The position numbers were made by a program, and so were the translations under genes. From positions 558,001 to 622,000 of the forward strand of contig JAHLTZ010000010.1 of NCBI GenBank assembly GCA_025786725.1: a stretch of DNA of 64,000 nt. The letters are read 5' to 3'. The notes below the pieces were generated by a model, which worked only from the letters and a program-made list of their open reading frames with translations, did not search any database and was not told the DNA's origin. Source of the DNA: Syncephalis fuscata (taxonomy: Eukaryota; Zoopagomycota; Zoopagomycetes; Zoopagales; Piptocephalidaceae). Positions 2,684-44,803 of this stretch are shown here, piece by piece; position 1 is the first letter of the stretch, and the number at the start of each line of letters is the position of its first letter.

Positions 2684-4817
2684 GGTTCGGCCACGAAAAG
2701 AACAACGGTGGTATAATTTTCAAATGGATATTATGCTAAAATAGCAATAATGTCATACATGTAAGTAATTAGAAGTGTCAAAATAAAGATTAGGCCAAAA
2801 GCAAACAAATAGAAAACGGGTTAAAGTGTTGCGGGAAAATATAGCAACCAAACAACCGGACTTTGATCTGGATGTGCACAATATCGCTTATAAGCAATAA
2901 TGGACTATTAGTGGCAAGAAAATGATACTAATATTGACTACAATGGTGCAACACTACAGGTCTGGTCAGCAGTATGCAGCAGTTCTACAAAGGCCGACGA
3001 CCACGCTTAATGTGTCCAGCGTTGTAGAAATAGCCGGCCAATCGATGCCAAAGAGTCGGCAAAAGGTAATCTCAAACAAGAATACTCGAGTCCACTTGCA
3101 CCCACACAAATAAAAAAGTAGAAATAAAAGTTAAAGGTTAATAGATAGACGAGTAAAATAAAAAATATCTATATACATAGTTACATCAATGTAGACATTT
3201 ATATATGTAGGTAGATAGATAGATAGATCAATAGATAGGCTGAGGAGCAATGTTGTGAAATCAATGGAAACGAGTCTAGCCAAAAAAATGTTGGAACAGA
3301 GATGAAACCAATACGATACACATACCCACCACTATCCATCCGTACATACGTGTTTGCTTATTCACTCACACTGGCAATAATGTCAGCTACCAAGAAATAG
3401 CAGCAGCAGCAGCAGCAGCAATAGCAGCAATAGAAATTAGGCGTCCACTGGAAAGAAAATCGAGAGGCAAGCCAAGGTGCGTGTATCAGGGGAGAGACAA
3501 TGGCAGTAGCGCGTGCGCGTGCGTGCACACACGCAGAGTAATAAGAAATCAGGAGAGCTGGTGCGTTTACGATTTAAACAGCAGTAAAACATAAATTGCT
3601 TAAAAAATAGACTGTTGTCGAGTCAAAAACGATAACATGAATGAACCAAATGAATATCAAATGCCTGACAACCGCCGTACCACACCACACAAATACATAC
3701 AAAATAAAAAATCAATTTAGACGCTATTTGGCCAATAAATAGGTTACTAGAACAAGATAGGATACTATGTAGGACGAAAATTCAATAGGCGTAAAAGATG
3801 GATGTATGTATGGTGTGTGTATGAATATATATGTGTGTGCGTGTGTGCATATGTTTATAGGTCGGCCATGAATGGATGTGAAACATAGAGATGAGGGGTA
3901 TTCGTGGTTTATCAATGACGCGCTGGCATGCAAATCGGGCCTTTCCTTTATGCGGTAACCAATACTGGCCATCGACTAAAACGCTAATAGATAGACAGCA
4001 ATTATAAAGAAAAACTAATCATTTATGCGTAATAAATGATAGTTCAAAGGTACATGGCCTGCTATGCAAGGCTTGACCGCAAGACAGGCCAGCACGTTTA
4101 GAGGAAAAGCGCACCATGATGCAGCTCGTCTGGAATCATATTAAATGCCACACTGGCCCTCGCCACCTAAAATAGATATCAAGGCCTGCTCCATCCAGAC
4201 AATAAACTTTCTGCAACATTTATATTGCGTAAATAGCGTCAAGATCCTTGCACTACATTGGCAAGACCCTTGGTTGTAAATAGTATTAAAACTACAGCAT
4301 GTATACAATCCATTTAAGAAAAGTGATAGCTGGGCACGAAAAGTCCTTTTTCAGGATAAAATCGGACATGCAAGGGTAAGCGCAATATGCACATGCTAGT
4401 AAAGTTCGATAAAACCAATGACACTGTACAATAGACACCACCACCACAACTAAGACAAGAAAAATCCCTAGACCTACCTATATTTGTATATACGTGCGTG
4501 GTGTATTTGTGTGCGTTATAGATACATCAATAGATGTGGATGTATTATTGCACAGATGTCTTTGCAAGTAGGTGAGTGTGTAAATAACAAGAATGAAATG
4601 GCAGTCTATTGGGTGAACCAATAAACAGAAGCCGGTATGGGCACTGTTGTATAATGAGCGGAATCAGTTGACGAAGAAACAAAAAAGGTGTCAAGTAGAG
4701 CTGCTGCTTTTGACAAGCAATAGTAAATTGATGCGCCAAGCAATGGATAAAAGAATGAAGCACGCCGTAAAATTACGTACGTGAACAAAGATAAAGAGGG
4801 TGCACAAGTTAAAAAAG

Positions 4818-14503: not shown

Positions 14504-15626
14504 GTTTAACTAGCAATAACAGCATCAAAATAAGTGCGTAATAAAGAAGAAAGGCAATAATAGGCACAAATGGAAAAAGGGCATGTACAAATGTGGGCTG
14601 CTTTATTCTATTTACAACGTTCAATGGTTACACAGTTGTATGACTATTGAGAAATAAACTGTGTTATTAGTTTTTATAAATAAAAAGTATAGTGAATCAC
14701 ATAAAGTTACGGTGAGTTGTCTGTAAAAACCAAACAAAGCCTAGAATATGGTAAAAGTGTGCAGTTACAAAGTCTAATGTGAGAAATAAATAATTTATAA
14801 TTGCCATATTTGGCAATAATAATATTTTATATTTCAGTCTTTTTTTACTAACATTTATTTAAAATACTGTGACGATCGTAAACAATATAGTGATGCAATT
14901 TGCAATTTTATTAAGCGCGGTTGTATATAGTAGTTAATAAACCTGTAAAATAGTCGTGAATAATTTATTAATATTAAGCCAAATAAATACTTTACCTTTT
15001 CAGATAGTGTTTGATATAATTCTACTTTATTTTAATAAATTGCTTATCGAAGGGATTTGCCATATTTTTTACCGTAATTCTTTAAAATAAAAGTTACTAT
15101 GAAAATTTTAATAAAATTACAGATTTACTGATGTGTGTGCGAATGCTGCACTGCTTTGCTACATGAAAGTCGTGACTGCAGCAATTATTTCACAAAAGCA
15201 AGCATGAAACATATTGGTACATTGCAGATCTTTCTGTCGCGAAGATGTAAATTTTTAGTGACTTGACAATTAGCTATAAATTATGACGAAACATATTGTC
15301 ATTTTATTAATTAAACAATATTCTCCAATTTATTGCTTATATCAATATATTTACCAAGCTGTTAAATACCATCTTTCAGCACTTATCCAGCTGGTCTGCC
15401 GATCTTTTAGTTTGATTCGAGCTTTATTAAATATCCGAAAAGTACTACACTGCTGTATTTTGTTACTTACCCGAGCTTACAAAACACTGGTCCACTGTTG
15501 TTATCTGCACCAAGTTGCTACTTTCTAAACCTTTCTAATCTGGATAGCGCAGGATCGCTCTGAAAAAGATCGCTATTACCTGTTAATTTCAAGTCAACTA
15601 TACTCAGCTACAATAACGTCGCAAAC
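14504..15626. other. Intergenic region upstream of the CAP/F-box cluster
   Basis: AT-rich spacer between two divergent genes (F-box A on minus, CAP-CBM19 on plus). An open frame at 15283-15528 is hydrophobic but has no signal-peptide layout or homology I recognise. No RNA gene seen. Confidence 0.4.
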
Positions 15627-16578
15627 ATGAAGCCTACAATTTGCCTGGCTATTTCACTATTCTGGCCACTATCGGTCTTACCAGCGCCAGTTCTAAGCCA
15701 AATGTCACTAAAATGCTATGCTTGGTCAACAAGTTTCGACATGAAAATGGTCTTGCCCCGTTAGGTCTTGATACAGGATTAATCGCGGCATCCCAAAAGC
15801 ATAGCCAACTTATGGCAGATACCCGTACAATGGAGCATCAGTTGTCAGGGGAACCAGATCTGTTTCCACGCATTAATTCGGTTACATCGCAGACAAAGTG
15901 GACGGGTGTAGCGGAAAACATTGCCTATGGTCAAAAGGACGAGGAAACAGTGACCGATACTTGGATCAAATCGCCGGGTCATCGTGCCAATATGCTTGGT
16001 ACTTACACGCATTTTGGTGGCGGTATGTCTGTAGGTGATGATAATCTTAAATATTGGACGCAGGACTTTGGCAACGATGGACAACATCACGATTTCCCCA
16101 TTTGTCCCGAAGAAGATGCATCGCTGACAACGACGTCGCCAACACCCTCAGCCACACATCAACGATTGCCGGTAGTCATAATGCCGTGCTTGATACTTAC
16201 AATCATAGTGATGGCAAGCGTCAAAAGGAAGATGATTCTCCATCTTACACACTAGATGGCACTTGCACTGTCGGTCAAAGTCGCTGTGATGGCAACGACA
16301 GGCTTGTTTGCCGCAATAAGCGTAGCTGGACACGTTATACTTGCCCACAGTCACATAGCTGCCAGGTCACAGGCAATGAGGCGCAATGTTATACGGCAAA
16401 TAACTACCATCAAAGCAATTCTAGCAAATCTATGCCAGTTCAACGTGCTACTCAACCCGTTAAAACCCGTACTGTTAAACATATAACGCCGTCCACCCAT
16501 GGCAAATACCACGATAAATCCAGCAAGATAAAACAAGATACCGACCGCAATACTAGTCAAGAAGCCTCCTGTTTATGA
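15627..16578 (+). CDS. Secreted CAP-domain protein with CBM19-like chitin-binding tail (two frame breaks)
   Basis: About 317 aa if two single-base breaks are counted. From the ATG at 15627 the frame gives a secretory signal (MKPTICLAISLFWPLSVLPA). Near 15690 the frame changes to a CAP/SCP domain: MLCLVNKFRHENG, the GE-H region HQLSGEPDLFPRI, GVAENIAYG, SPGHRANMLG and YWTQDFGNDG. Around 16140-16170 it changes again, after a Thr/Pro/Ser linker, to a Cys-rich module CTVGQSRCDGNDRLVCRNK ... CPQSHSCQV ... C, which has the spacing of fungal CBM19 chitin-binding modules. A basic, Ser/Thr-rich tail ends in SCL. No canonical intron explains either change; each equals one missing base. CAP proteins are extracellular and some bind sterols; the CBM would tether this one to chitin (inference). 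Confidence 0.7.
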
Positions 16579-17388
16579 TTGACATATTTGTCATACTGAA
16601 TGGTGTTTCAAGCGCGTTGCCGCATTAATAATATTTTAGCTGGAAATTCATTGTCACAATTGCTCATTTTTAATAAAAATTGGCTTAATTTTTAGTGAAA
16701 ATCATGTTTAGAATAATGGTGTGCTTTTGTGTACTATTTTATTTTTCATATGTTATCAGAAGCGTGCAGTTGCCTTGTAGTTATCATTTTGACCAACATG
16801 TGGATTGGTTTTTGTATTTCCAAATTGATTTGTCGTGTCGAAATGTGCTATCTACTTGCCGTTCATTCCAAACTTATGTATCGCACGTGTTTATCAAACA
16901 GGAATTATACTTATCAACTATCGATTTACCATGCAGGTATCGCATTTGGCGATTGGCGGAGTTGGTTGGAATGACTGAAAAAGGAAACGCGGCTATGATG
17001 CTTCGGAGTAAATTGCAGCAGTTTTCTTTTTAGCACTTTTCTGTTTCCACGTGTCGAGATTATAGGAAAATACATGAGCGCGCTTTTAACAACGGCTTTG
17101 TATAAAGGCAATGGTGCGATTATTAGTCGATTTTGCTTATCACTACTATTCGCTTGTTTTATGCTACTTTAGTTGGGTACTTGGTAGTAATTTATTACAT
17201 TCTACTGATATTAATACTCTACTTCTATATTTGCCTTCACGACTACTTTATCTTTTTAATACTTCACGTTATACGGAATCCTAACGCGCTACATATAACA
17301 ATTTTATTCCAAAATTTATGCGACCAGCGAATAACACATTCGACATCTTTCAACGAACACTATATTACGATTATTTACGACTAGCGTC
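16579..17388. other. Intergenic region between two CAP genes
   Basis: AT-rich. An open frame from about 16704 to 17033 begins with a hydrophobic, Cys-containing stretch but has no conserved domain and I do not call it a gene. The right part is the promoter of the lone CAP gene. Confidence 0.4.
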
Positions 17389-17829
17389 ATGAACTATTTC
17401 AAAACCTTAATTGTTGCTATGGTCATGGCTGTTGCCATCTTGACTAATTTTGTTGTCGCGGATGTAGCTGATGATATGTTGAATGCGCTTAATGCTTTGC
17501 GTGCCAAATACATCCTTCCTCCGCTTCAAAAAAGCGATACTCTTGTTGCTGGTGCGCAAAAGCACAGCGATGAGATGAAGAATAGCCACGTTTTGGGCCA
17601 TTTCTTAAATGGAGAGCCTGGTCTTATGGAACGTTACCAAGGCCCGGAAAAGCTACGACGAGTTGCTGAAAACATTTCAGCAGAAACTACTCTACAACAA
17701 GCCATGGACAAGTGGGAAATCTCTGGAGTACATTTTGGTCACATGACTTCTTCATCCTTCCGCTTTTTCGGCGGTGGCTTGGCAGTAGGTGCTGATGGTG
17801 CTTACTACTGGACACAGGCATTTGCCTAG
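17389..17829 (+). CDS. Small secreted CAP-superfamily protein
   Basis: Single exon, 146 aa, intact. A clear signal peptide (MNYFKTLIVAMVMAVAILT, cleavage likely after VVA) is followed at once by a minimal CAP domain: DDMLNALNALRAKYILPPL, AQKHSDEMKNS, HFLNGEPGLMERY, RVAENISAE, FFGGGLAVG and YYWTQAFA at the C-terminus. The HRxNI-type helix is degenerate (GVHFGHMTSSS). Secreted CAP proteins in fungi bind sterols or act at the cell surface; the exact role cannot be read here. It is transcribed in the same direction as the CAP-CBM19 gene upstream and the F-box gene downstream. Confidence 0.85.
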   Translation: MNYFKTLIVAMVMAVAILTNFVVADVADDMLNALNALRAKYILPPLQKSDTLVAGAQKHSDEMKNSHVLGHFLNGEPGLMERYQGPEKLRRVAENISAETTLQQAMDKWEISGVHFGHMTSSSFRFFGGGLAVGADGAYYWTQAFA

Positions 17830-19988: not shown

Positions 19989-22241
19989 TTAGTTATTGCC
20001 TTTGCTGCTGCGTCCAATTGAACCGAAAATTGATTTAAACAGCTGCTTCACTGGTGGCTTGGATGTGGTAGTTGACTTAGTGTCAGAAGTGCTAGTGCTC
20101 TTCACCGATCCACGCGATACTTTGAACGAAATACGCTTGAAAGGATTGGACGATCGCTTGCTATTGAAAATATTATCATTGTTTATAGGCGATGTTGGTG
20201 AAGGAGTTACAATGGAAGATGAGTTTGACGAATAGCTTGACTTGGTATTAACGACAGGTGTATTGTCCGATGATTCAATCACTTCAACAGTGTGTGTAAC
20301 ACGGCTTGTATGTCCGCCAGAGTTAGAGTCGAGTCTAGATAGTGGTGGCGTTGATGATGACGACGATTCATCGGTTGTAGTTGTTTTCGTCACTACCGTG
20401 ACATAGACATCATTCTCGTAGGTCATGCCGTCAAATGGCTTCTCGTCATCTTCATCCAATTGGGCAAATAGCTGAGTCCAATAAGGCTTGTTATTTGCAT
20501 CATTAGCCATGGCAATGCCAAAGTGCGTGTAATCGCCGAGAATATTGTCGCGATGCTGAGGCGATTTAAGCCATACATCCATGACAAGCTTCTCGTCGGC
20601 ACTGCCAAAGCCAACATTCTCAGCCCACGCACTCCATTGACGACCCTTGGACACCGCATTAATGCGACTAACAAGATCAGGTTCACCTGGTAGCTGATGC
20701 GACATTTGACCGGCACATGCCTGTTCCATACAATGATCATGCGCAGCCTGGGCCAATCGTGGATCATGAATAAGCGGCCTCTTATTGCATTTTGCTCGCT
20801 CTTCATTGACCAAGTCAAGTGCCGCGGCCATTTTAGCCGCCATAGCAGACGGTGTTAAAGTGATTGTGCTGGCTGGACGTGGCTTGCCATTCGTCGACAC
20901 GTATTCAATTATCGTCTCGACTACTTCGTCACCTGATGTCGGCTTACCCATTGTACCGAATACTTGTGTCCAGTAAGGCTTGCCGTTGCGATGAGCAATG
21001 CCTATACCCATATGCGTGTAATTGCCGAGAATGTTATCTCGATGCTGTGGCGAGTTCATCCACATGCTCATAACAACACGCTCATTATCATTTCCAAAGC
21101 CAACATTCTCCCCCCAGGCCATCCATCGCTTGTTGGGAGCAGTCACTTCATTCACACGTGCAACAAGATCGGCTTCATCTGGTAGCTGATGCGACATTTT
21201 GCCTGCACCTGCCTGTGCTTCGCTATGAAGCTGAGCTGCCTTAATTAGGCAGTCATCCAGCGCCAGCAATGATAGGTTCGTCTTTTGTCGTTCCTCGTTG
21301 ACTAGTTTAAGCACGCTTTGCAGTTGCTCCTCTCCTGGAGCTTCTTCGTGTGGCAGCGGCGATAGAGGCGGTGTAGGCATGCTATTATCTTCTTCTTGAG
21401 TACTGCCATCATTGGCAAACACTTGAGTCCAGTAAGGCTTATTATCGACGCCAACGGCCATAGCTGTACCCATATGTGTATAATCAGCTAGGATGTTTTC
21501 TCGATGCTTTGGTGAATTCATCCAGCTTTCCATCATAACGTCCTCCTTCTTGCTGCCAAAGCCAACGTTTTCGGCCCATCCGACCCATGACTTGCCTTCC
21601 GACACCTTAGTCACACGAGTGATTAGATCTGGCTCGTCAGGTAGTCGGTGGCTCATGGAAGCCGCTTGGCCTTGCAAGTCACTGTGTAGCTGTGCGGCAC
21701 GTACTAAGCACTGATCAATAAATAATGGCCTGCAGCCATGTTGAACTCGTTGTTTGTTAACCAGCTGCAACATTCGTTCAATGGCTGCCTCATCTGTAAT
21801 TTGATGCTTTGGCTTGTTGTGCTGATGTTCTTTCATTGGACGACCATCCTCGGGACACACGGAGCCGTCGTTGGCAAATACTTGGGTCCAGAAGAACTTG
21901 CCCTGTGCAGAGGTCGACATGGCCGCCGCAAAGTGGGTATGCGCACCAGTGATATTTTTGTGATGACTAGGCGATTTGATCCAACTTCGCATCATCGTCT
22001 CTTCAGATTGGCTGCCAGCACCAACATTCTCGGCCCAGATGGTCCACTTGCCTTCTGGCGATACTGACTTGACACGCTTAAGTAGATCGTCTTCACCTGG
22101 CATCAGATGGCCCATCTTGTTTTCCCTGGCTTGTGCATCGCTGTGTGCTTTGGCGGCCTTCAGTAAGCATGGGTCCATGATGAGCGCCGGCTTATTGTGG
22201 CGCGCGCGCTCTTCGTTGACCAGTTGTAGCATTTTAGACAT
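19989..22241 (-). CDS. Four-CAP-domain protein (tetra-CAP), 750 aa
   Basis: One long exon with four tandem CAP domains at roughly residues 1-125, 150-285, 310-440 and 485-610, then a Ser/Thr-rich tail with a basic end. Each repeat has the CAP signatures: MLQLVNEERA-like helix, H-x-LPGE/PDE-DL, WAENVG (AWGENVG in the third), SPxHxxNI, YTHxGxxM and WTQVFAND. The repeats are more like each other and the CAP of the CAP-CBM19 gene than a typical single CAP, indicating internal duplication. As written there is no signal peptide: the ATG sits at the start of the first CAP. A strong donor (GTAAGTACTG) at about 22625 on this strand could join, in phase, to an acceptor near 22258, adding an upstream exon; no ATG is visible in it, so it may be a UTR intron. 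Location (cytosolic or secreted) is therefore open. Confidence 0.85.
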   Translation of the reverse strand: MSKMLQLVNEERARHNKPALIMDPCLLKAAKAHSDAQARENKMGHLMPGEDDLLKRVKSVSPEGKWTIWAENVGAGSQSEETMMRSWIKSPSHHKNITGAHTHFAAAMSTSAQGKFFWTQVFANDGSVCPEDGRPMKEHQHNKPKHQITDEAAIERMLQLVNKQRVQHGCRPLFIDQCLVRAAQLHSDLQGQAASMSHRLPDEPDLITRVTKVSEGKSWVGWAENVGFGSKKEDVMMESWMNSPKHRENILADYTHMGTAMAVGVDNKPYWTQVFANDGSTQEEDNSMPTPPLSPLPHEEAPGEEQLQSVLKLVNEERQKTNLSLLALDDCLIKAAQLHSEAQAGAGKMSHQLPDEADLVARVNEVTAPNKRWMAWGENVGFGNDNERVVMSMWMNSPQHRDNILGNYTHMGIGIAHRNGKPYWTQVFGTMGKPTSGDEVVETIIEYVSTNGKPRPASTITLTPSAMAAKMAAALDLVNEERAKCNKRPLIHDPRLAQAAHDHCMEQACAGQMSHQLPGEPDLVSRINAVSKGRQWSAWAENVGFGSADEKLVMDVWLKSPQHRDNILGDYTHFGIAMANDANNKPYWTQLFAQLDEDDEKPFDGMTYENDVYVTVVTKTTTTDESSSSSTPPLSRLDSNSGGHTSRVTHTVEVIESSDNTPVVNTKSSYSSNSSSIVTPSPTSPINNDNIFNSKRSSNPFKRISFKVSRGSVKSTSTSDTKSTTTSKPPVKQLFKSIFGSIGRSSKGNN

Positions 22242-23539
22242 ATTGTATGTGTTTTCTGGTTAGAATTGTGATATCTAAGTGGGATAAATGGTGGTGATAG
22301 ATTTAGTTGAAAAATAAACGGCGAACAAATATGTTACTGAATATTTTCAAAAAAATCAGCGTTAGTTTGCAATAAATGTAAATCCAAAGCACTACACTCT
22401 AATCAATAGTAGGTTTGGTAACGTGTCTAATTGTGTTGATGTTTAAGGGAGATAAAAGCAGTTAATATCAAAAATAAACGATTGAAATGGTGTTGCTGTA
22501 ATGGCGTGTAGAATTGACTAAACACAACAAGAACACACCAATTTATAGATAGACGCCCATTTCGATTAGACCAGAGAAAAGGCTGCCAAAAAAAGAAAAC
22601 GCATAGCCACTAAAACAGTACTTACCGGCACCAGTGCAGCAGCAGTATCCTTGACGTGGATATCCAATAGTTGGCTGTAGTACTTTATGGGTCACTGCCG
22701 TTACACGCAGTAGTATTCAGACAAAAAGTCGACTAGAATGTCGTTCGTTGAATCAATTGGTGGTTGTGTGTAAACGTTCTTTCTCGTTCGATCTGCAGTG
22801 ACTGTTTGTTGATGTTATGTAGAGACGGCCCGATATTGATTTGGCATGCAAGTACCAAGTAGGGCGCAGTTATTTGCCAGAAATTGCTATTACTGGTAGC
22901 GTAGATAGAAGACCGCTGAGAACAAATACAACGGCTTGTTACTGAATATATGTGTAAGTCGTATTGATAGTAGTAGTAGTAGTAGTAGTAGTAGTACGAA
23001 AAGAAACAAAGATAACAACTAGCAAGTGGCAAATGTCATATCGTCAAACTAGTTATATTAGCTGCCGAGCGCAGCGCTTTTTATTGTGAAGCGACGGAAT
23101 AGGCCAAACTGATGCATGGGTCAGCCTATCTCTGTCGTGCAATGAAAAGATGCAGCACGGTTCAAGGAGAATAATGTGTATGTCTGTTTGGTGTTCATGT
23201 GTGTACACTGTTTTACCGCATGCTCTGTACAGTCGGCTGCATGCAGTTCGGCTTGTTGGCTATACCTGAAGCTTTTTATTCATGCTTTTGTCATAGCAAT
23301 ACATATGGTAGCCAAGCAGTAGCATGTGGCATTTGTAATTAAGCATGCGACGTGCAGAGTCGGCATACTATGTATCAGATGAACGAAGCATTACAGATTT
23401 ATATGTAAAAATGACATCGTATTGTAATAAATGTCTTACTAGTCTATTTATATCGTCAAAAACTGATATGCCTATTACTAAATTGGGCAAGAAGCAGTTG
23501 CGTGTTTCATAAACTAAACTTTATACCCATTATGCGTAA
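22242..23539. other. Upstream region of tetra-CAP gene with TAG repeat
   Basis: Contains a candidate 5' splice site on the minus strand at about 22625 (see the tetra-CAP gene) and a (TAG) trinucleotide run at about 22968-22994. No other gene recognised; tyrosine- or serine-repeat open frames here come from the TAG run. Confidence 0.45.
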
Positions 23540-26527: not shown

Positions 26528-26894
26528 GCTTGATTAAGTTTGGATAGAATACACGTCATACTACTTTGCATGTGTTTTAATAAAATGATGTTTATTGCAA
26601 CATGATACGCCTCAACTGTGCATCACCATGGATTGGCAATTTTCAAACAGGGGTACATTTATATGGCGGTGTAACCTTATGGACTGCATTTCATGTGTTC
26701 ATATTGGTATAAGAACTAACGTGTTTCTTGAAATGGCTATCATTTATGCCATAAACGCCTTCTCTGACACTCGTCTTCCGCCTGTCGACCAGTCACAGCT
26801 TGTCGCTTTTTATTTTGTAGTTTTTGTTTAGCCGGTCTAAACATACCATATTATCGAATTAGCACATAGTGTATTTACCTGTTACTTTATCACC

Positions 26895-27362
26895 ATGCAA
26901 TTCTTCTCTGCTATTATCTTATGTCTACTATCAGTTGCTACTGTCTGGACACTACCAATAACAAATGAGCATGGCAATAAAGAAGCCAACGATAGTGCCA
27001 TGGTAAAGATGTTTAACTACATCAATAATCATCGTGTTCAAAAAAACCTTCCAACACTTATTATGGAGCCATGCCTTTATTATGTGGCTTATCGTCGCAG
27101 CAAAGAATTAGACACTGTCCCCAAACTGACATACTGTGTAGCCAATTCATTGAAACTTGCTCCTAATGAATGTGACGCAAAAATACCGCGTGATACATCT
27201 TTGATTCAATGGATTAAACTCGTTAATACCGACACATTTGAATCAAAAGCTCAAGAGGAAAATTTTATAAATTATATTGAAATGCCAACATCTGAATACA
27301 TTGGACTTGATGTAATTTCTGACTCAGACGAAGGACAAGCCTGGACGATTATACTTGCTTAA
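26895..27362 (+). CDS. Divergent secreted CAP-like protein
   Basis: 155 aa, single exon, intact, with a signal peptide (MQFFSAIILCLLSVATVWT). The mature part keeps the start and end of a CAP domain: MVKMFNYINNHRVQKNLPTL and LIMEPCLYYVAYRRSKEL parallel LVNEERARHNKPAL and LIMDPCLLKAAKAHSD of the tetra-CAP protein, and GQAWTIILA parallels YWTQLFA. The central signatures (H-x-LPGE, AENVG, HRxNI) are lost. Either a decaying or a rapidly diverging CAP paralogue at the edge of the cluster. Confidence 0.6.
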   Translation: MQFFSAIILCLLSVATVWTLPITNEHGNKEANDSAMVKMFNYINNHRVQKNLPTLIMEPCLYYVAYRRSKELDTVPKLTYCVANSLKLAPNECDAKIPRDTSLIQWIKLVNTDTFESKAQEENFINYIEMPTSEYIGLDVISDSDEGQAWTIILA

Positions 27363-36616: not shown

Positions 36617-37151
36617 CGTGGCACTGCTACAGCTAATAAAATCGACAAATAAAGTAGAATAAAAAGTCCGATTCAAGAACTTGCTAGAATGGCGGTAAAA
36701 GAGGCAGTGGCGTCATAAATAGATTGATCATATTGATCATTTAACAATTTACAGATATTCATTCAAATGAACTAGTATTTATTAATATATTGCTTATATA
36801 GCATAGCACTTTTACTATCCATTGCTATGGAGCATTGGCATACTGGCACTGTAGAAAATCGATGATGCTTTGTCATCGGGCTATTACTATTCCCGAGCAT
36901 CACTCCGCAAAGACCCGTAAGAAAACGGGTAAAGTAGGATTCATGCTGTTGTTCCGATATACACTTAAAACATTTTAGCAACTATTTATGCCTCGTGTTT
37001 GCCTGGAACAACACAAATCATCTGCATCGGTTTCCCTTTTATCTTTTCATACATATTGTAGCATCCAAGAGACATTGAGATAGTCTCTCTTTTTCATACA
37101 GTTACTACTACTACTACTACTGCTGCTGCTGCCTTTTTTTCTATTACAAAT
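36617..37151. other. Divergent promoter region (RWDD1-like / RCF2)
   Basis: Divergent spacer. A CTACTACTACTACTGCTGCTGCTGC tract lies at about 37104-37129, just upstream of the RCF2 start. Nothing else recognised. Confidence 0.4.
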
Positions 37152-37913
37152 ATGAAGATCCTTACACAAAAAGAAAGTGACGAAGCACAGCAGGCCGCCA
37201 TCAACGGTGGTATCAAAGGAGCTGCCGTTGGCCTTGCCGCTAGTTTGGTGCTTTCACTTGCTGCACAGCGCTTTTCTCCCGGCTATCGTCGCCTTACATT
37301 ACCGCTTAAGGTTTTCTTTGTGACGGCCGGCGTATCAGTAACTACGGTTATTCAGGCAGAACATGAAATGGGAGCCTACGAAGTGGAGCGAATGCGCCGT
37401 CGTGGATCGCAAAGACCTACACTTGAGTCTATGTTGAATCCGGATCAAGTTACTGCCCAACAACATCAAGCGGAATTAGCCATGGTGCCAGCACGCCCAT
37501 TAGCACAACGTACAGTCGATTTCATCAATGCGAATCGATGGTCAGTGGTTGGTAAGTAATATAGCTTCTACGCAATGTGACTATGTTTATTGATTCGCTG
37601 GTTGTTTAGGTGGTACATGGGCTACTGGTATGGTTGGTGCTGGTACCTATCTCTGGGCACAAAAGTAAGCATATACAGTTAACCATTAGTAACAATTGCT
37701 CATTCTGTATTATCATTGCATTATAGATATATGACATGGCAACAAAAGCTTGTCGAAGCACGTATGTACGCTCAAGCAATTACCATCTTTGCCTTATTGG
37801 CTACAGCTGCTCTTTCAATGTCGCAAGAGCCAGTTAATCCACAAGCCGTGAAAGATGATACATGGCGTCGTCGACTAGCCTCAGCTCCAGAAAAGAACGC
37901 CATTTCTCAGTAA
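37152..37913 (+). CDS. RCF2: HIG1-domain respiratory supercomplex factor (RCF2-like)
   Basis: Three exons: 37152-37551, 37610-37664, 37727-37913; 213 aa. Two N-terminal hydrophobic spans (GAAVGLAASLVLSLA; LPLKVFFVTAGVSVTTV) flank the conserved PGYRRLTLPLK motif. The C-terminal HIG1 domain, VGGTWATGMVGAGTYLW and KLVEARMYAQAITIFALLA, matches the fungal Rcf2 layout. Rcf2 associates with cytochrome c oxidase and respiratory supercomplexes in the mitochondrial inner membrane. All splice phases agree, frame intact. Confidence 0.9.
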
Positions 37914-38110
37914 TCATTTGCAGTATATTAACATTAGTAAACTTGTTATCAATTTATTATTGCTGTTATTATTAATGTTTCATCTGTGACTAAGCAAATA
38001 TTTTATTTCTTTTTTATTTAAACTATTACAAGACAGAACAAACAAAATATTGTTTACTAATTGAATAATGAACTACAAATATCAATCATCAAAGTTTAAT
38101 ATAAGAACCA

Positions 38111-38676
38111 TTTTACTTTGACTCGCTATTCTTAAACTGAAGAACAAAAAGATCCATAATTTGAATGATAAATCGTCCATCAGTTTTTACTACTGAAAAG
38201 TGCTATTTGTTAAAGCAGTGTACATCAACTCCGATTGAACTAATCAGAGTCAATTAATCTGCACTATTTTCAATATTTGATATCAGTGTTAATAAATGGT
38301 AAATAGTATTTCATGCTACTTACAACAAAATGTTACATTTGATTATGATGTTTATGCAACAGTAGAAGATTGGAAAATAAAAGAGACCATTTAGACGCAA
38401 TAATCCATGCTGTACATAGATGCAACAACAATCAATGCGGAATGACATGGAATCGCGATCAATGGCTTCTATTAATATTCGATTAATCTTTCTACACATG
38501 GCCAACGACAATAATAATCGGCCTCAAATGTTCCAAAGAAATCAAATATTATGCTGCAGTAGTTATTTAAATCAATTTATTAACAATATTTTAATAGGAA
38601 GTAATATAACTATGTTTGTTGCGCATAACTGTGCGACTTCAATTGGAACAAGTTTTGCTTTGGGGGTTCAAAATGG
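38111..38676. mobile_element. Non-autonomous relative of element A (element B)
   Basis: Starts with TTTTACTTTGACT, the same end as element A, and its first about 230 bp are nearly identical to 27568-27810. The right part (ATTGGAACAAGTTTTGCTTTG then GGGGTTCAAAA) is shared with element C at 45525-45570 and, more weakly, with 28660-28690. It lacks the zinc-ribbon gene, so it is a short deletion derivative of about 570 bp. The right end is degenerate. Confidence 0.55.
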
Positions 38677-38799
38677 TGAATTTCAAAAATGCCACTTTTT
38701 CGGTTTTCAATTTTAAAAAATTCATCATAATAAATTACAATTTTAAATAAGCATAAATAAAATATTAAAATATTAATTTCTTTTATTAAGAAAATATAT

Positions 38800-39178
38800 C
38801 TAGATGTCTACTAAACTATTCAAGAAGTTATATTTACCAGTATTGAAGAGCTGAGGATTGCCGTTGACGAGTTTAAACTTGTTAACGATTGCAATTTTAA
38901 AAAGAAATGTTTTAACAAGATTACAGTCTATTTGTTCTCATGAAGATCGTTTCGACAACAAATGTCAGCTTGTTTTGACCACCGGAAAGCAAAAGATTGG
39001 ACTGGTAAAGATTGCATTAAGCAATATTAATTATTTTAATGGTTATCTATATGATTATGGTAATGATACTATTAAATATGTTACTAACTATATTACAAAT
39101 GATATTGCTACATTTTTAAATATAAAACCAAAAGATGTACAAGTAAAAGCATTAAGTAAATATTTAAGTATTTAATAT
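38800..39178 (+). other. Unrecognised decayed open frame
   Basis: Reading frames here change every 30-60 codons. A stretch from about 38940 to 39175 (EDRFDNKCQLVLTTGKQKIG, then YGNDTIKYVTNYITNDIATF) looks protein-like and an adjacent frame starting at 38803 opens MSTKLFKKLYLPVLKS. No family recognised. It may be a transposon or gene remnant next to element B. Confidence 0.25.
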
Positions 39179-41036
39179 ACATTAACAATTATAATAGCAT
39201 AATAAATGCTAGTATTTCTTATTGCAAAGCTTGGTCTGATTTTGATTTAATAAAAGATAATGGCATTGTTACAACAATAGCAATAGAATGATGTAACTTT
39301 AACCAAGCAACCAAAGGAGGAAAAGAAATAGCAGTAGTAGCTTAGTCAAATGTTTTAATATCAATTTAATAAAAATACTATTATTAATATAAAATAACTT
39401 TAACTTCAAACAATAGTTTGAATCAGCAGAATTATAACAGAAGTTACAACTGTATAAATTTTAATAATAAACTAAAAATTCCTGATAAAAAAAGGTAATT
39501 TAGAATTTTGCTTATTTACGTAATTTACTTAATTGTAGCAATTTTAACAGCAATTTCAATTGTGTTTTATTTGTTAAAAAACTTTCAACAATATACTTGT
39601 GACAAATGCAACTTAAAAAATACAATACAAAAACATTCATTGTAGGGGTTAGTATTAATAATATTAAACTAATGGTTAGTGTTGAAATAAACGTTTTTAT
39701 TGAAAAGCAAATACAAACTGCTAATAAAGCAAATGTTAAAATAAATAAGTGTAATACAAAAAAATTTAATTAATAAATATTCTTTAAAATATAAAATTAA
39801 CTAACAAATAAAATTCAAGTGGCTTATTTAGAACGTTTCAGATATCAGATTTAGCAATGAAATAGTTCCTAATTACATGAGAGTATTATTGCTCTGATCA
39901 ACTTAAATTAGTTAGTTGGCCATCAAGCAAGAGTGAAGATATGTAAAATAAAGCCGTCAAAATGATATTTGTCATTGATAAGCTAGAACAATCTACTCGT
40001 AACATCCATTCTTAAATGTCGTAGTAGTCGCTCCAATGTTCTAATTTAAAAGAGTTATGGAACATGGTAAAAAAAAGCTTAAGAGGATGTTGTGGTGGAT
40101 TATTTAAGCCACTTGATTTGTATTAAATCTTATGATATTTTTATTAACTAAATAAAGCTAACTTTTTCCACAATATTAAGCACGCTATTGGTTGTTTGAT
40201 GTGATTTGGCAGTTAAATAGCTATAATAGCCGCACATTTAAACCAACTATTTATTTTATTAAAGATGAAAATGGGTGTTGAATGTCATTGATTATTAAAC
40301 TATTTACTTATCATTATTATTGTACTGTACATATCTATCCTGTATACATATACTATATGTCCATCTATATCATTAATATTGTAAATTGTAAAAACTATAC
40401 TAATAAAAGCTAAAAGTTTATTGCTAATTGTATTCTTTTAGTAAATCTTGATTTATTTCGTTCATTGCTCTTGGTCAATTACATACAGTATAGTCTCACT
40501 ATTCCTATTTATGTATTTGATTTGCTTATTTATTTTGTTTTATAATATTGTATGCTTTATTGTCGTGTTTTATTAAAAAACATCTTTATTTTAATTTCAG
40601 TATAATATTATTTGGCTATATGATAATGATAGCTTTGCTATTATCCATACCAATCTATACCTATAGCTTACATGATATAATTATACACACTTTGTTATTA
40701 ATTTAACTATTTAATTAATAGTTGTCAATTATTGGATACAAATAGAACATGATTATAAATATAGCAATTTGATTGTATATAGTTAAGATGGAACCATAGA
40801 TTTATTACTATAAGCTTGCACAGTTGAATAGAGGCAACTAGATGCAAACATGTTGGTAAAATAATGATTTCATTAATTAAAGACTGGATAAGCCGGAGCA
40901 TTGGCCAAAACTTGATATATGGATAGACAGGACGGCGTAGTTGTCAAATGGTCTTGCTTTTACCGAATATATACCTAAAGTGTATTGGAATAGTGGTTTG
41001 ATTGCACCACCAATGCTAATGTCTTGAAACCGTTGA
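39179..41036. other. AT-rich region downstream of the microexon gene
   Basis: Very AT-rich, no conserved protein seen. Its right end should hold the 3' UTR and polyadenylation site of the microexon gene. No tRNA-like or repeat structure noticed apart from poly-A/T tracts. Confidence 0.4.
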
Positions 41037-43171
41037 TTATGCTGTATTTACAAATAAAGATATTATATGTTATATAATTAATGTATAAGCCATCGATATA
41101 CAATACTACTTACAACCTATTAGTATTAAGTTGTTGGTACACATAATGTATAACATGTAGTTAGTGAGTAATTAATTAATATATAATACAACTTACATTC
41201 CTCTAATGTTGATTTGTTGATAGATACAGTACATGATATATGATTAGTGAATATCCAGTTAATATACAATACAACTTACTATCTATTATATTAAGTTATT
41301 GATACACACAGTACATATTATATAATTAATGTATAATCAGCTAATACACAATACTACATACCGCCTATTAATATTAAATAATTGGCACAGTCATTAAATA
41401 TTATAGTTAATATATAGTCAGCTAATACACAATACTACTTACAAACTAATGATATTAAATAATTGGTGCAATCGATAAATAGCATGTGATTAGTGAGTAA
41501 TCAATTAATACACAATATCACTTACAGCCTATTAATATTAAATAATTGATACAATAAATAAATAGTATAGTTAATGTATAGTCAATTAATATACAATACC
41601 ACTTACACCCTATGGATATTAAATAATTGGTATAATCAATAAATAGTATAGTTAATGTATATCCAGTTAATACACAATACAACTTACCAGCTATTAGTAT
41701 TAAATAGTTAATAACATTAGTAAATAGCATAGTTAATGTATAGTCAGCTAATATACAATATAACTTACAATCTATTCATATTAAATAATCAGTGCAATCA
41801 ATAAATAGCATAGTTAATTTATAGTCAGCTAATATACGATACAACTTACGACCTATTAATATTAAAGAATTAATACAGCCAGTAAATAACATAGTTAATG
41901 TATAGTCAGTTAATGTACAATATCACTTACCTACTATTAATATTAAATAATTGGCACAATTAGTAAATAGCATAGTTAATAGATAGAAAATTAATATACA
42001 ATACAACTTACTGCCTATTAATAGTAAGTTATTGATACACACAATACACGATGTATAATTAGCCAGTAGTCGGTTGATATATAATGCTACTTACATCCTA
42101 TTAATATCAAATTAATACACACAGTATATGGATATAATCAGTGAGTAATTAGTTAGTATAAAATGCCACTTACTTTCTATTATATTAAGTTATCGATGCA
42201 CGTAATTCATGATATATAATTAGTTAATACTCAATTAATATGCAATATAGCTTACTAACTATAGCATTAAGTTGTTGATATACATAATACATGGTATATA
42301 ATTAATTTACAAGTCAGCAACATACAATACAACTTACGGCCTATTAACATTAAGTTATTGATAGATATAGTGTATAATATATAATTAGCCAATGCTCAAA
42401 CAATATACAATATGACTTACATGCTATTAATATTGAGTTATTGATACACGTATCACATGGTATAAATTAGCACATAATCAGTTAATATACAATACAATTT
42501 ACCTCCTATGTCATTAGGTTGTTGATACACACAATACATGGAATATGATTAATTTATAAGCCACCAGTATACAATATTACTTACTGCCTATTAGTATTAA
42601 GTCATTAATCCACATAGTACATCATATGCAATCAGTAAGTAATCAATTGATATACAATACAACTTACATCCCGCTAATATTAATTAGTTGATGGATGTAG
42701 TACATGGTATATAATTAGTGTATGTCATATTGATATACAACGCAACCTACCAGCTATAAATATTTATTTGTTGAAGCACACAGTACATAGTATATAATTA
42801 GTGCGTAGTTAGTTAATATATAATACAACTTACGATCTATTAATAATAAATAGTTGATACAATTAGTAAATAGCATGTGATTAGTGAGTAATTAATTAAT
42901 ATACAATACAACTTACCTTCTATTAATAATAAATGATTGGTACGATCAACAAATAGCATGTGATTAATGCAGTCAATTAGTACACAACGCAACTTACTGG
43001 CTATTATAATCATTATTTAGAAATACTGTTAGTAAGCATAATAATATGATATATCTATTGTTATTGCAGCATATCAGCACGACGAACTAAGGCTGGATTG
43101 GCATCCACCATGACTGTAGCGGCCACAAGCGCAACGACAATGGTGCAAACGACGGCAATGGAAAGCTTCAT
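41037..43171 (-). CDS. Microexon-array gene for a small secreted cysteine-rich peptide
   Basis: Exon 1 (43081-43171) encodes a signal peptide (MKLSIAVVCTIVVALVAA, then VMVDANPALVR). Internal exons, plus coordinates in transcript order: 42998-43000, 42917-42919, 42834-42836, 42751-42753, 42668-42673, 42585-42587, 42503-42505, 42421-42423, 42338-42340, 42256-42258, 42174-42176, 42095-42097, 42012-42014, 41931-41933, 41850-41852, 41769-41771, 41688-41690, 41607-41609, 41526-41528, 41443-41445, 41362-41364, 41280-41282, 41197-41202, 41114-41116; last 41037-41041. Each is preceded by an AG (mostly TAATAG-like) and followed by GTAAGT or a close variant. Joined in phase 1 they stay open and give spacing C-x2-C-x3-C-x5-C-x-C-x3-C, one Ser and TAA. 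The other two phases hit early stops. 57 aa in all. The exon 1 donor (GTGCTG) is weak, so that junction is uncertain, but it gives an 80-nt intron. Function unknown. Confidence 0.8.
41042..43080 (-). repeat. Tandem array of about 25 introns, period about 81 bp
   Basis: About 24 imperfect copies of an 80-83 bp unit. On the minus strand each copy reads GTAAGT-TGTATTGTATATTAAC ... TACTAAT-like branch region ... TTAATATTAATAG, then 3 nt, then the next GTAAGT. Internal spacer lengths are 76-80 nt (final intron 72). Ends are the best-conserved parts, which is what splice-site selection would preserve, whereas a neutral satellite would drift evenly. Seen from the plus strand it is an AT-rich satellite with CTTAC every 81 bp. 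Confidence 0.85.
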
Positions 43172-44803
43172 GGTAATACTGATTTGTTAAGATAAACAAA
43201 TAAAAGAGATAGTAGAGTGTGGTTGGTATAGGGTAGAGAGTAGTGTGTGTTTAGTAAGAAGTAGAGTGTGATGATGATATCGCAGTTGGTTGTGTATATT
43301 TTGTGGGCTATTTAAACTTATGATTATGCTGAGATGCCAGTATACTGTAGTATACGATATATACAATTGCTGTGTAATATGAACCAATAAAACAATCCAA
43401 ACAATGGTTTGAGGTGCACATGTACCAATAGATTCATGATGTGATAGCATGCTTCCTAGGCTTGATTTTAATCTGCTCGGCCCTGATGCAACCTGCTCAG
43501 TCTTAATTTTAACTTGTCCGGTCTTGATTTTAATCTTCTCGGCATTTACGCAGCTGACGCGGCAATTCCAATGAGCGGTACATATACGATAGACATGTAC
43601 ATCATTCTGTATCTTCTGTTGCACGATTTAACTATCTGGTGAAAGCAAGATATTGTTTGGTTTTGTGAAAACGATAATGATGTCTTTGCTGCCATTTCTA
43701 CCAATTCAGTCCTCAATATCTGTTGCATACAGAATAGCACACAAAACTGATGCAAAAACAAGCTTAATGTATCAAACTGGTATTTTATATAGGTTTTACT
43801 ACTATACATAGGTTGGCCATAATTTTTAAATTATAAAGTATGTTGATTGGTACATGCATGCATTTTATTCGACATTATGCCTATTGTTACAGGGGTAATC
43901 ATTGTTTTGAATTCACAAATGCATCACATTCAGGCATATCATGCCACATGTTGTGCAACTGCTATCATTCAAATGGCGGCTAATCTGAATCACGTGAAAT
44001 TGATTATACAATGAGTACTATTTGTAGGATGATGTATCACAGCATTTTGAGCAATGAAACAGTCCAACAAGTCATTTTTGTCATCAGTCTTCTGCTGTAA
44101 ACTAGATTGCATCGGATAAACTACACGCAATACAATATGCAGACACTGAACTAGACACAATAGGAAGCCCTAACCAGTTACCAGCAATTTCGAGTGTACA
44201 ATGGCTGTGAACTGCATATCAACCGGTAATCATACAAGGCCTAACTGCTGCTTACATTTCTGAAACTACTTTTGACAAGCAAGATAAAATGTAGAAGAAC
44301 AAACCAAAGCAGAAACTAATGGGAAACAATTGGCAGCTCAAAAGTTTACTGGTTTAACCTGTGCCAAATTATTGTAGCTATGCTAAGCTGGACTGTGTTT
44401 ATCAAAAAGTTGGCTGTTGCTGATGCAACTAGAACAGCAGCAATGTTAAACCAAGATAATACACAGAAAACAGAGAGTTGTAAATATAATTGAATTAACA
44501 AGTTTAGTAGTTAAATAACTTATTATTGGCACTATAATTTATAATTCTGGCTGTTTGTATGGACAAATACTTACAATCACATTGTAACTTATATATTTAC
44601 ATTTATACAACCACTAACTAAGCCAACTACTATAAGACTTAATCTAATCATTTATTAGAGTAAGTAACTAACATTATACATTATTGTAATAATAAAAAGA
44701 CATGTTAACTTATTTATTGACCATTAATAAAAGTTGTATAGCTGTATATTAAAATAAAATAAAATAACAAATTGAGTGCGTAATATTTATATAATCAGAT
44801 CAT
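43172..44803. other. Promoter of the microexon gene and AT-rich spacer
   Basis: The left edge is the upstream region of the microexon gene, with a GT/GA-rich 70-bp stretch (about 43200-43275). Around 44290-44490 the plus strand has short protein-like pieces (KAETNGKQLAAQKFTGLTCA; KKLAVADATRTAAMLNQD) interrupted by stops, probably a decayed gene or transposon. Nothing else recognised. Confidence 0.35.

Follow-up and report, generated by a model that had tools for sequence, protein, structure and literature searches.

Arrays of single-codon exons predicted to form a micro-exon gene family for secreted, mostly cysteine-rich peptides in the fungus Syncephalis fuscata

Genes cut into very short exons have been described in flukes and aphids. 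The micro-exon genes (MEGs) of Schistosoma mansoni are described as encoding secreted proteins with a conserved signal peptide from many short exons, the lengths of which are mostly multiples of three (PMC10526429). Most of these exons are given as 15 bp long (with a range of 6-81 bp in the body of that article and 3-81 bp in its abstract), the introns as 0.1-5 kb, and the number of genes as 35 (PMC10526429). The bicycle genes of aphids are presented as a large family of putative secreted effectors with many microexons, about 17 exons on average, almost all internal ones starting at codon position 2 (PMC9168663). Exons at the lower size limit are also on record, including an isolated 1-nt exon in Arabidopsis APC11 (PMC4674806), a 1-nt exon in Fusarium CYP621A and a 3-bp exon in Drosophila homothorax (PMC12940212, PMC7392893). 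In recursive splicing, an acceptor and a donor are reported to lie side by side at a ratchet point, and the intron is removed stepwise (PMC8605326).

Here we analyze a 64,000-nucleotide stretch of contig JAHLTZ010000010.1 (the window), in which the original prediction had placed a gene built from two dozen exons of 3-6 nt in a fungal-type genome. The organism is indeed a fungus, Syncephalis fuscata (Zoopagomycota, Zoopagales), of a genus treated as mycoparasitic (PMC6784888). The minus-strand array consists of 24 units lying 3' of a leader exon, each formed by (C/T)AG, 3 or 6 nt, and GTAAGT or a near variant; all units are present on that strand where they had been predicted, from 43000 down to 41114. 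They recur with a period of ~81 bp, and the tandem-repeat rows reported by TRF for the array have ~70-74% matches. The features of the locus are as follows; the leader and the RR were recognised by eye.

43260..43330, minus strand: upstream stretch with the TATA-like motif TTTAAATAGCCCACAAAATATACACAACC, common to the family; putative promoter
43075..43171, minus strand: exon 1, 97 nt, MKLSIAVVCTIVVALVAATVMVDANPALVRRA + G, with one base left over; leader resembling a signal peptide, then a short spacer with RR at its end
43069..43074, minus strand: exon-1 donor place, which reads ATATGC in the window copy; the 20 remaining models of 21 have GTATGT or GTATGC
43001..43074, minus strand: intron 1, 74 nt, with a TACTAAC branch-point-like motif seen by eye
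41114..43000, minus strand: 24 microexons (22 of 3 nt, 2 of 6 nt) with introns of 76-80 nt, from the sequence and TRF
42668..42673, minus strand: 5th microexon, 6 nt
41197..41202, minus strand: 23rd microexon, 6 nt
41037..41041, minus strand: terminal exon, coding part CA TAA; the uninterrupted paralogues stop where the same 3' stretch begins
40800..41036, minus strand: 3' flank or 3' UTR, common to the array genes and the uninterrupted gene L050

Chaining of acceptors and donors without regard to the reading frame yields exactly these 24 units with an open product, and thereby recovers the anticipated open frame after exon 1 that ends with TAA in the final 5-nt piece CATAA. The second half of the product, AKDPAGCRACLKRCIGHSGCFCDKECS, is followed by the TAA stop and carries the six cysteines (C-x2-C-x3-C-x5-C-x-C-x3-C) that had been recognised in the joined units. 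The two other phases contain 1 and 2 stops (counted on 23 of the 24 units), so the earlier claim that they are closed holds for the window; it fails for the family, where 13 of 18 arrays have no stop in the phase that takes the microexons themselves as codons. The stops in the window are by themselves modest evidence, and the question was decided by family-wide unit counts.

The leader exon was found at no fewer than 150 places, including that of the window (150 of the 322 candidates from the whole genome were scored). A strict unit pattern, AATAGNNNGTAAGTNNNATTNTATA, occurs 693+774 = 1467 times in the genome and 0+0 times in its reversed control, and a second strict pattern with a variable gap, TAATAG-N{0,14}-GTAAGTNNNATT, occurs 938+1019 = 1957 times against 0+4. 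Among the 100 places listed of these 1957, all on C1 and C2, the acceptor does not directly abut the donor but is separated from it by exactly 3 nt in 99; the sole other spacing is 8 nt, at C1:688920-688945. The two patterns catch 46% and 54% of the 465 microexons in the open models described below, from which a genome total of about 3160-3640 microexons is extrapolated, or, at 31 per gene, about 100-120 arrays; these gene numbers are rough because some copies are near-identical duplicates, perhaps alleles. Unit matches apart from the listed leader places were observed at C1:575187-575779, C1:609973-610565, C2:276019-276203 and C2:469798-471188, and possibly represent arrays of other gene families.

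A single-sequence protein search returned 9 relatives and a profile search 11, all from S. fuscata, and at the sensitivity of these word-based searches none were found outside this species. No protein with joined microexons was recognised among the 11 annotated family proteins. One of them, P0004 (C256:745357-745825), matches in two pieces 270 bp apart, adjoining a leader with a 43-aa open frame, and looks like a two-piece gene model forced onto an array.

Gene modeling covered the window and 20 other stretches; together these yielded 21 models of arrays as well as L050, a gene without interruptions. Of the 21 mechanical, frame-blind models, 15 have a frame that stays open from the ATG to the terminal exon; these 15 comprise 465 microexons, 444 of them 3 nt long and all with lengths that are multiples of 3, and the intron mode is 78 nt. 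The six models that are not open as built include three with odd-sized pieces (L039, L049, L051) and three in which the rule finds no terminal exon (L049b, L043, L044). L044 was opened by a hand-made model with 44 microexons, of which three are 15 nt and the other 41 are 3 nt long; this model uses one GC donor and two AAG acceptors, the latter before 15-nt exons, and passes over one unit. Its product would have a leader as well as one coiled-coil-like and one hydrophobic stretch, and the other phases are full of stops; L043 compared with L044 has a one-base loss inside one microexon. These two loci (C2:519k and C2:537k) would form a divergent array subfamily that does not have the six-cysteine pattern. 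An intron of 494 nt was observed in L056 at about 925-1422, where the close relative L057 has the usual one, and is probably due to an insertion.

The splice sites of the 465 microexons are nearly invariant. Donors read GTAAGT in 398 of them and acceptors end in TAG in 461; the information content is 1.5-2 bits at the final acceptor positions and at most of the donor positions, and only 0.05-0.14 bit in the exon columns. Of the 465 exons, only 113 end in G. As judged from these site statistics, the exon contributes nothing to splice recognition.

The reading frame is set by exon 1, the length of which is 1 modulo 3 in 20 of 20 array models (L043 and L044 included, L050 and one spurious start set apart). 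In the 18 arrays with at least 5 clean units (490 microexons; L039, L043 and L044 were dropped), the exon-1 phase contains 0 stops in 513 codons and the other phases 5 and 45, while shuffling the order of microexons within genes gave a mean of 33.8 stops with a minimum of 20 (2000 trials). After removal of one of each near-identical pair, 14 arrays (386 microexons, 404 codons) have 3, 0 and 39 stops in the three phases, the exon-1 phase being the one with 0 in 404 codons; the corresponding order shuffles average 27.9 stops and never fall below 15 (5000 trials). The motif C..C...C appears in 10 of these 14 genes (shuffles: mean 0.14, maximum 3), and the 14 arrays hold 68 cysteines (shuffles: mean 33.2, maximum 48). 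The expectation that random joining of 3-mers would not produce such a frame and such cysteines was thus borne out. The phase in which each microexon forms its own codon has few stops as well, and hence the argument for the exon-1 phase rests on the order test and the cysteines. That other phase (5 stops in the 18 arrays) was rejected, given that it has C..C...C in 0 of the 14 genes and is the wrong phase for exon 1. Chance or a simple minisatellite as the source of the arrays is ruled out by the reversed-pattern controls together with the exon-order shuffles.

Further evidence comes from uninterrupted paralogues. All 20 of the other stretches align with the intronless gene L050 in two blocks, one running from the upstream region to approximately the exon-1 junction and one starting at the terminal exon; the alignment is weaker (72-75%) for L043 and L044. 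Between these shared flanks L050 contains one open frame with C-x2-C-x3-C at its start; Pfam gave no hit for the 66-aa peptide up to an E value of 1. Because the upstream region is also common to the array genes, we ruled out that L050 is a processed pseudogene inserted elsewhere. Six more uninterrupted genes code for similar cysteine peptides and have the same leader and 3' flank, and the protein P0001 matches at least 19 places, among the 150 listed, over at least 60 of 69 residues with no stop (at 100% on C236 and C273). When the spliced strings of 17 arrays were compared with the uninterrupted frames at the nucleotide level, 10 of them beat at least 196 of 200 order shuffles, including 5 that beat all 200; for four of the 17 (L048, L040, L058 and L055) the match is no better than that of the shuffles. 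In one such comparison, L049b and L059 have 33 of 41 bases in common. In a tree of leaders and 3' flanks (25 rows; L064 was too short, and L043 and L044 were left out), the uninterrupted members fall in at least two places, and 13 of the 22 inner branches are weak.

Four recent gene pairs allowed a comparison of substitution between exons, introns and splice sites. The splice hexamers are changed at 8 of 1558 positions and the introns at 229 of 8640 (p 1.9e-9), i.e. the hexamers five times less, whereas the exons, changed at 14 of 405, do not differ from the introns (p 0.34). In these four pairs, purifying selection on amino acids was not seen, as the exons diverge at the intron rate. The splice sites of the arrays are thus conserved while the codons drift or diversify. 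The introns are alike both within and between family members (mean identity 0.74-0.78), and within a gene neighbours are slightly more similar (0.776) than distant introns (0.739). Of eight intron pairs that are at least 97.5% identical, three have the same codons on both sides, and 14 of the 48 flanking exon bases differ overall. This pattern suggests block-wise copying of units, after which either the codons changed rapidly or introns moved independently of them.

Taken together, the family-wide statistics, the uninterrupted paralogues and the conservation of splice sites uphold the proposal of a gene with two dozen exons of 3-6 nt that share one reading phase. We assign a probability of about 0.92 to the reading that S. 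fuscata has a family of micro-exon genes in which single-codon exons would encode secreted, mostly cysteine-rich peptides.

Two other accounts of the arrays need to be weighed against this reading. A degenerate minisatellite, the unit of which contains AG-NNN-GTAAGT by chance and has no coding role, would fit the tandem repetition at ~81 bp with its ~70-74% matches; it is at odds with the order-dependent absence of stops and the cysteine pattern, with the coding homology to uninterrupted ORFs, and with the three variable bases placed exactly between nearly invariant splice sites. The stop and order tests and the match to the uninterrupted genes refute it as a full account, and we give it almost no credence. 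The arrays could instead be a splice-capable relic, only the uninterrupted paralogues making the peptide and the array copies decaying or being removed as one large intron that reaches from exon 1 to the terminal exon. In favor of a relic, exon 1 joined directly to the window's terminal piece reads GCA TAA and would leave the leader only, uninterrupted members do exist (the P0001 matches at 19 or more of the 150 listed places), GT is missing from the first donor of the window copy, and six of the 21 mechanical models were not open. However, neither 0 stops in 404-513 codons with a conserved order of cysteines nor splice hexamers that, in recently duplicated genes, diverged five times less than the introns would be expected of decaying copies, and we consider the relic quite improbable.

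How the arrays arose is a separate matter, on which the data point in two directions: i) repeated introner-like insertion into an uninterrupted gene, and ii) duplication of an intron-plus-codon unit, followed in some members by total intron loss through cDNA. Insertion would account for nearly identical introns that adjoin different codons (the 14 differing flanking bases of 48 in the eight pairs) and for the alignment of array codons with uninterrupted genes, and introner-like elements are described from fungi (PMC4457414). On the other hand, the three of eight pairs with identical codons on both sides point to unit duplication, as does the additional unit of L042 compared with its close relative L041; it is hard to see how insertions could have occurred at exact 3-nt intervals, always in one phase and some 30 times per gene; and the occurrence of uninterrupted members in two or more places of the 25-row tree, many forks of which are weak, is easier to understand as complete losses. 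We therefore regard the insertion origin as doubtful, though a genuine contender.

Within the preferred reading of the arrays as micro-exon genes, the window copy may itself be impaired, as its first donor is AT where 20 of the 21 models have GT; the normal splicing of this copy is therefore in doubt, and the conclusions on the family are unaffected. The locus L045 on C61 is collinear with window positions 36978-43647 at ~97% identity and has a GT donor; it may be the other allele of the window locus or a duplicate (segmental duplication). Further pairs in the family are likewise near-identical. Elsewhere in the window, CAP-domain (cysteine-rich secretory) proteins are encoded at 15617-16252 (+) and 19989-22256 (-), including a 755-aa member with four CAP stretches, and a pair that look alike by eye, at 17335-17829 (+) and 26841-27362 (+), probably also encode CAP-domain proteins.

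The gene structure suggests the following mechanism. Exon 1 would encode a leader for secretion, followed by a short spacer. We take the two arginines at the end of this spacer to be a Kex2-type site, so that the array would encode the mature peptide. This peptide, mostly starting with C-x2-C-x3-C and often containing six cysteines, would be assembled from a run of 18 to about 44 exons, each starting at codon position 2 and nearly all one codon long, and the terminal exon would provide the stop and the 3' UTR. In the stretches read, a stop follows soon after exon 1 on read-through, and unspliced RNA would accordingly give the leader only. The ~78-nt introns would hold all splice information in their TAATAG acceptors and GTAAGT donors, which would leave the 3 nt between the sites free to vary. 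From what is known of splicing biology, an acceptor and a donor 3 nt apart are presumably not occupied together; introns would then have to be removed one by one or in alternation, by intron definition. Splicing would most likely proceed intron by intron, the next strong GTAAGT donor arriving each time at the end of the growing exon, in what would amount to a codon-retaining form of stepwise splicing. With unit lengths that are multiples of 3 and a common phase, units could be skipped, duplicated or lost without a frame shift. Expression, secretion, cleavage after RR, the order of splicing and a role at the host-fungus interface are all predicted here from gene structure.

On this basis one may speculate about a codon-cassette system, in which each residue of a secreted peptide would have its own intron-bounded cassette. 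Stepwise splicing with frame-neutral skipping of cassettes would produce a library of peptides per locus, and single codons would be gained, lost or exchanged between genes through recombination of their near-identical introns. Splice sites would be kept and triplets would vary in a host-fungus arms race. We put this proposal forward tentatively, as one that could well prove wrong.

The predicted family would push the lower limit of gene fragmentation, with a mature peptide from ~30 one-codon exons in a large family of an early-diverging fungus. It opens tests of how the spliceosome deals with an acceptor and a donor 3 nt apart many times in succession, and the coexistence of arrays and uninterrupted paralogues offers a system for the study of intron gain or loss. 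Same-phase microexons in variable secreted proteins of parasites would have appeared repeatedly, in flukes, aphids and now a mycoparasitic fungus, and the family makes the reason for this recurrence accessible to tests. The gene class appears to have been missed by annotation, as only 11 family proteins were found compared with the 150 or more leader places.

Comparison with the known systems places the arrays among micro-exon genes in the general sense, in that many very short internal exons joined in frame are present at the sequence level. Their architecture had been proposed to be undescribed in fungi; in the literature on microexons in fungi or Syncephalis available to us, no description of runs of single-codon exons was found, which agrees with the proposal and falls short of proving it. 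The APC11, CYP621A and homothorax exons, as described, indicate that exons of 1-3 nt are within reach of the spliceosome, as would be needed here; however, those are single tiny exons in ordinary genes, whereas the S. fuscata arrays are runs of ~30 that would carry a whole mature peptide. At ratchet points the acceptor abuts the donor within long introns, in contrast to the arrays, where 3 nt would be retained each time at intervals of ~78 nt. The bicycle genes, as they have been characterized, resemble the arrays in that the internal exons of the array genes also start at codon position 2; bicycle exons are longer than the array exons, bicycle genes are known for paired C-Y-C motifs, and word-based protein searches revealed no sequence relationship between the two families. 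Neither did these single-sequence and profile searches reveal one with the MEG proteins. The features that the arrays have in common with MEGs, as the latter are reported, are a secretory-type leader (here recognised by eye) and many short exons in multiples of three; the differences are that nearly all internal exons are 3 nt long, that the introns measure ~78 nt and are alike, and that roughly 100 arrays are estimated. On these gene models, the S. fuscata arrays are extreme micro-exon genes, far more finely cut than those of flukes and aphids.
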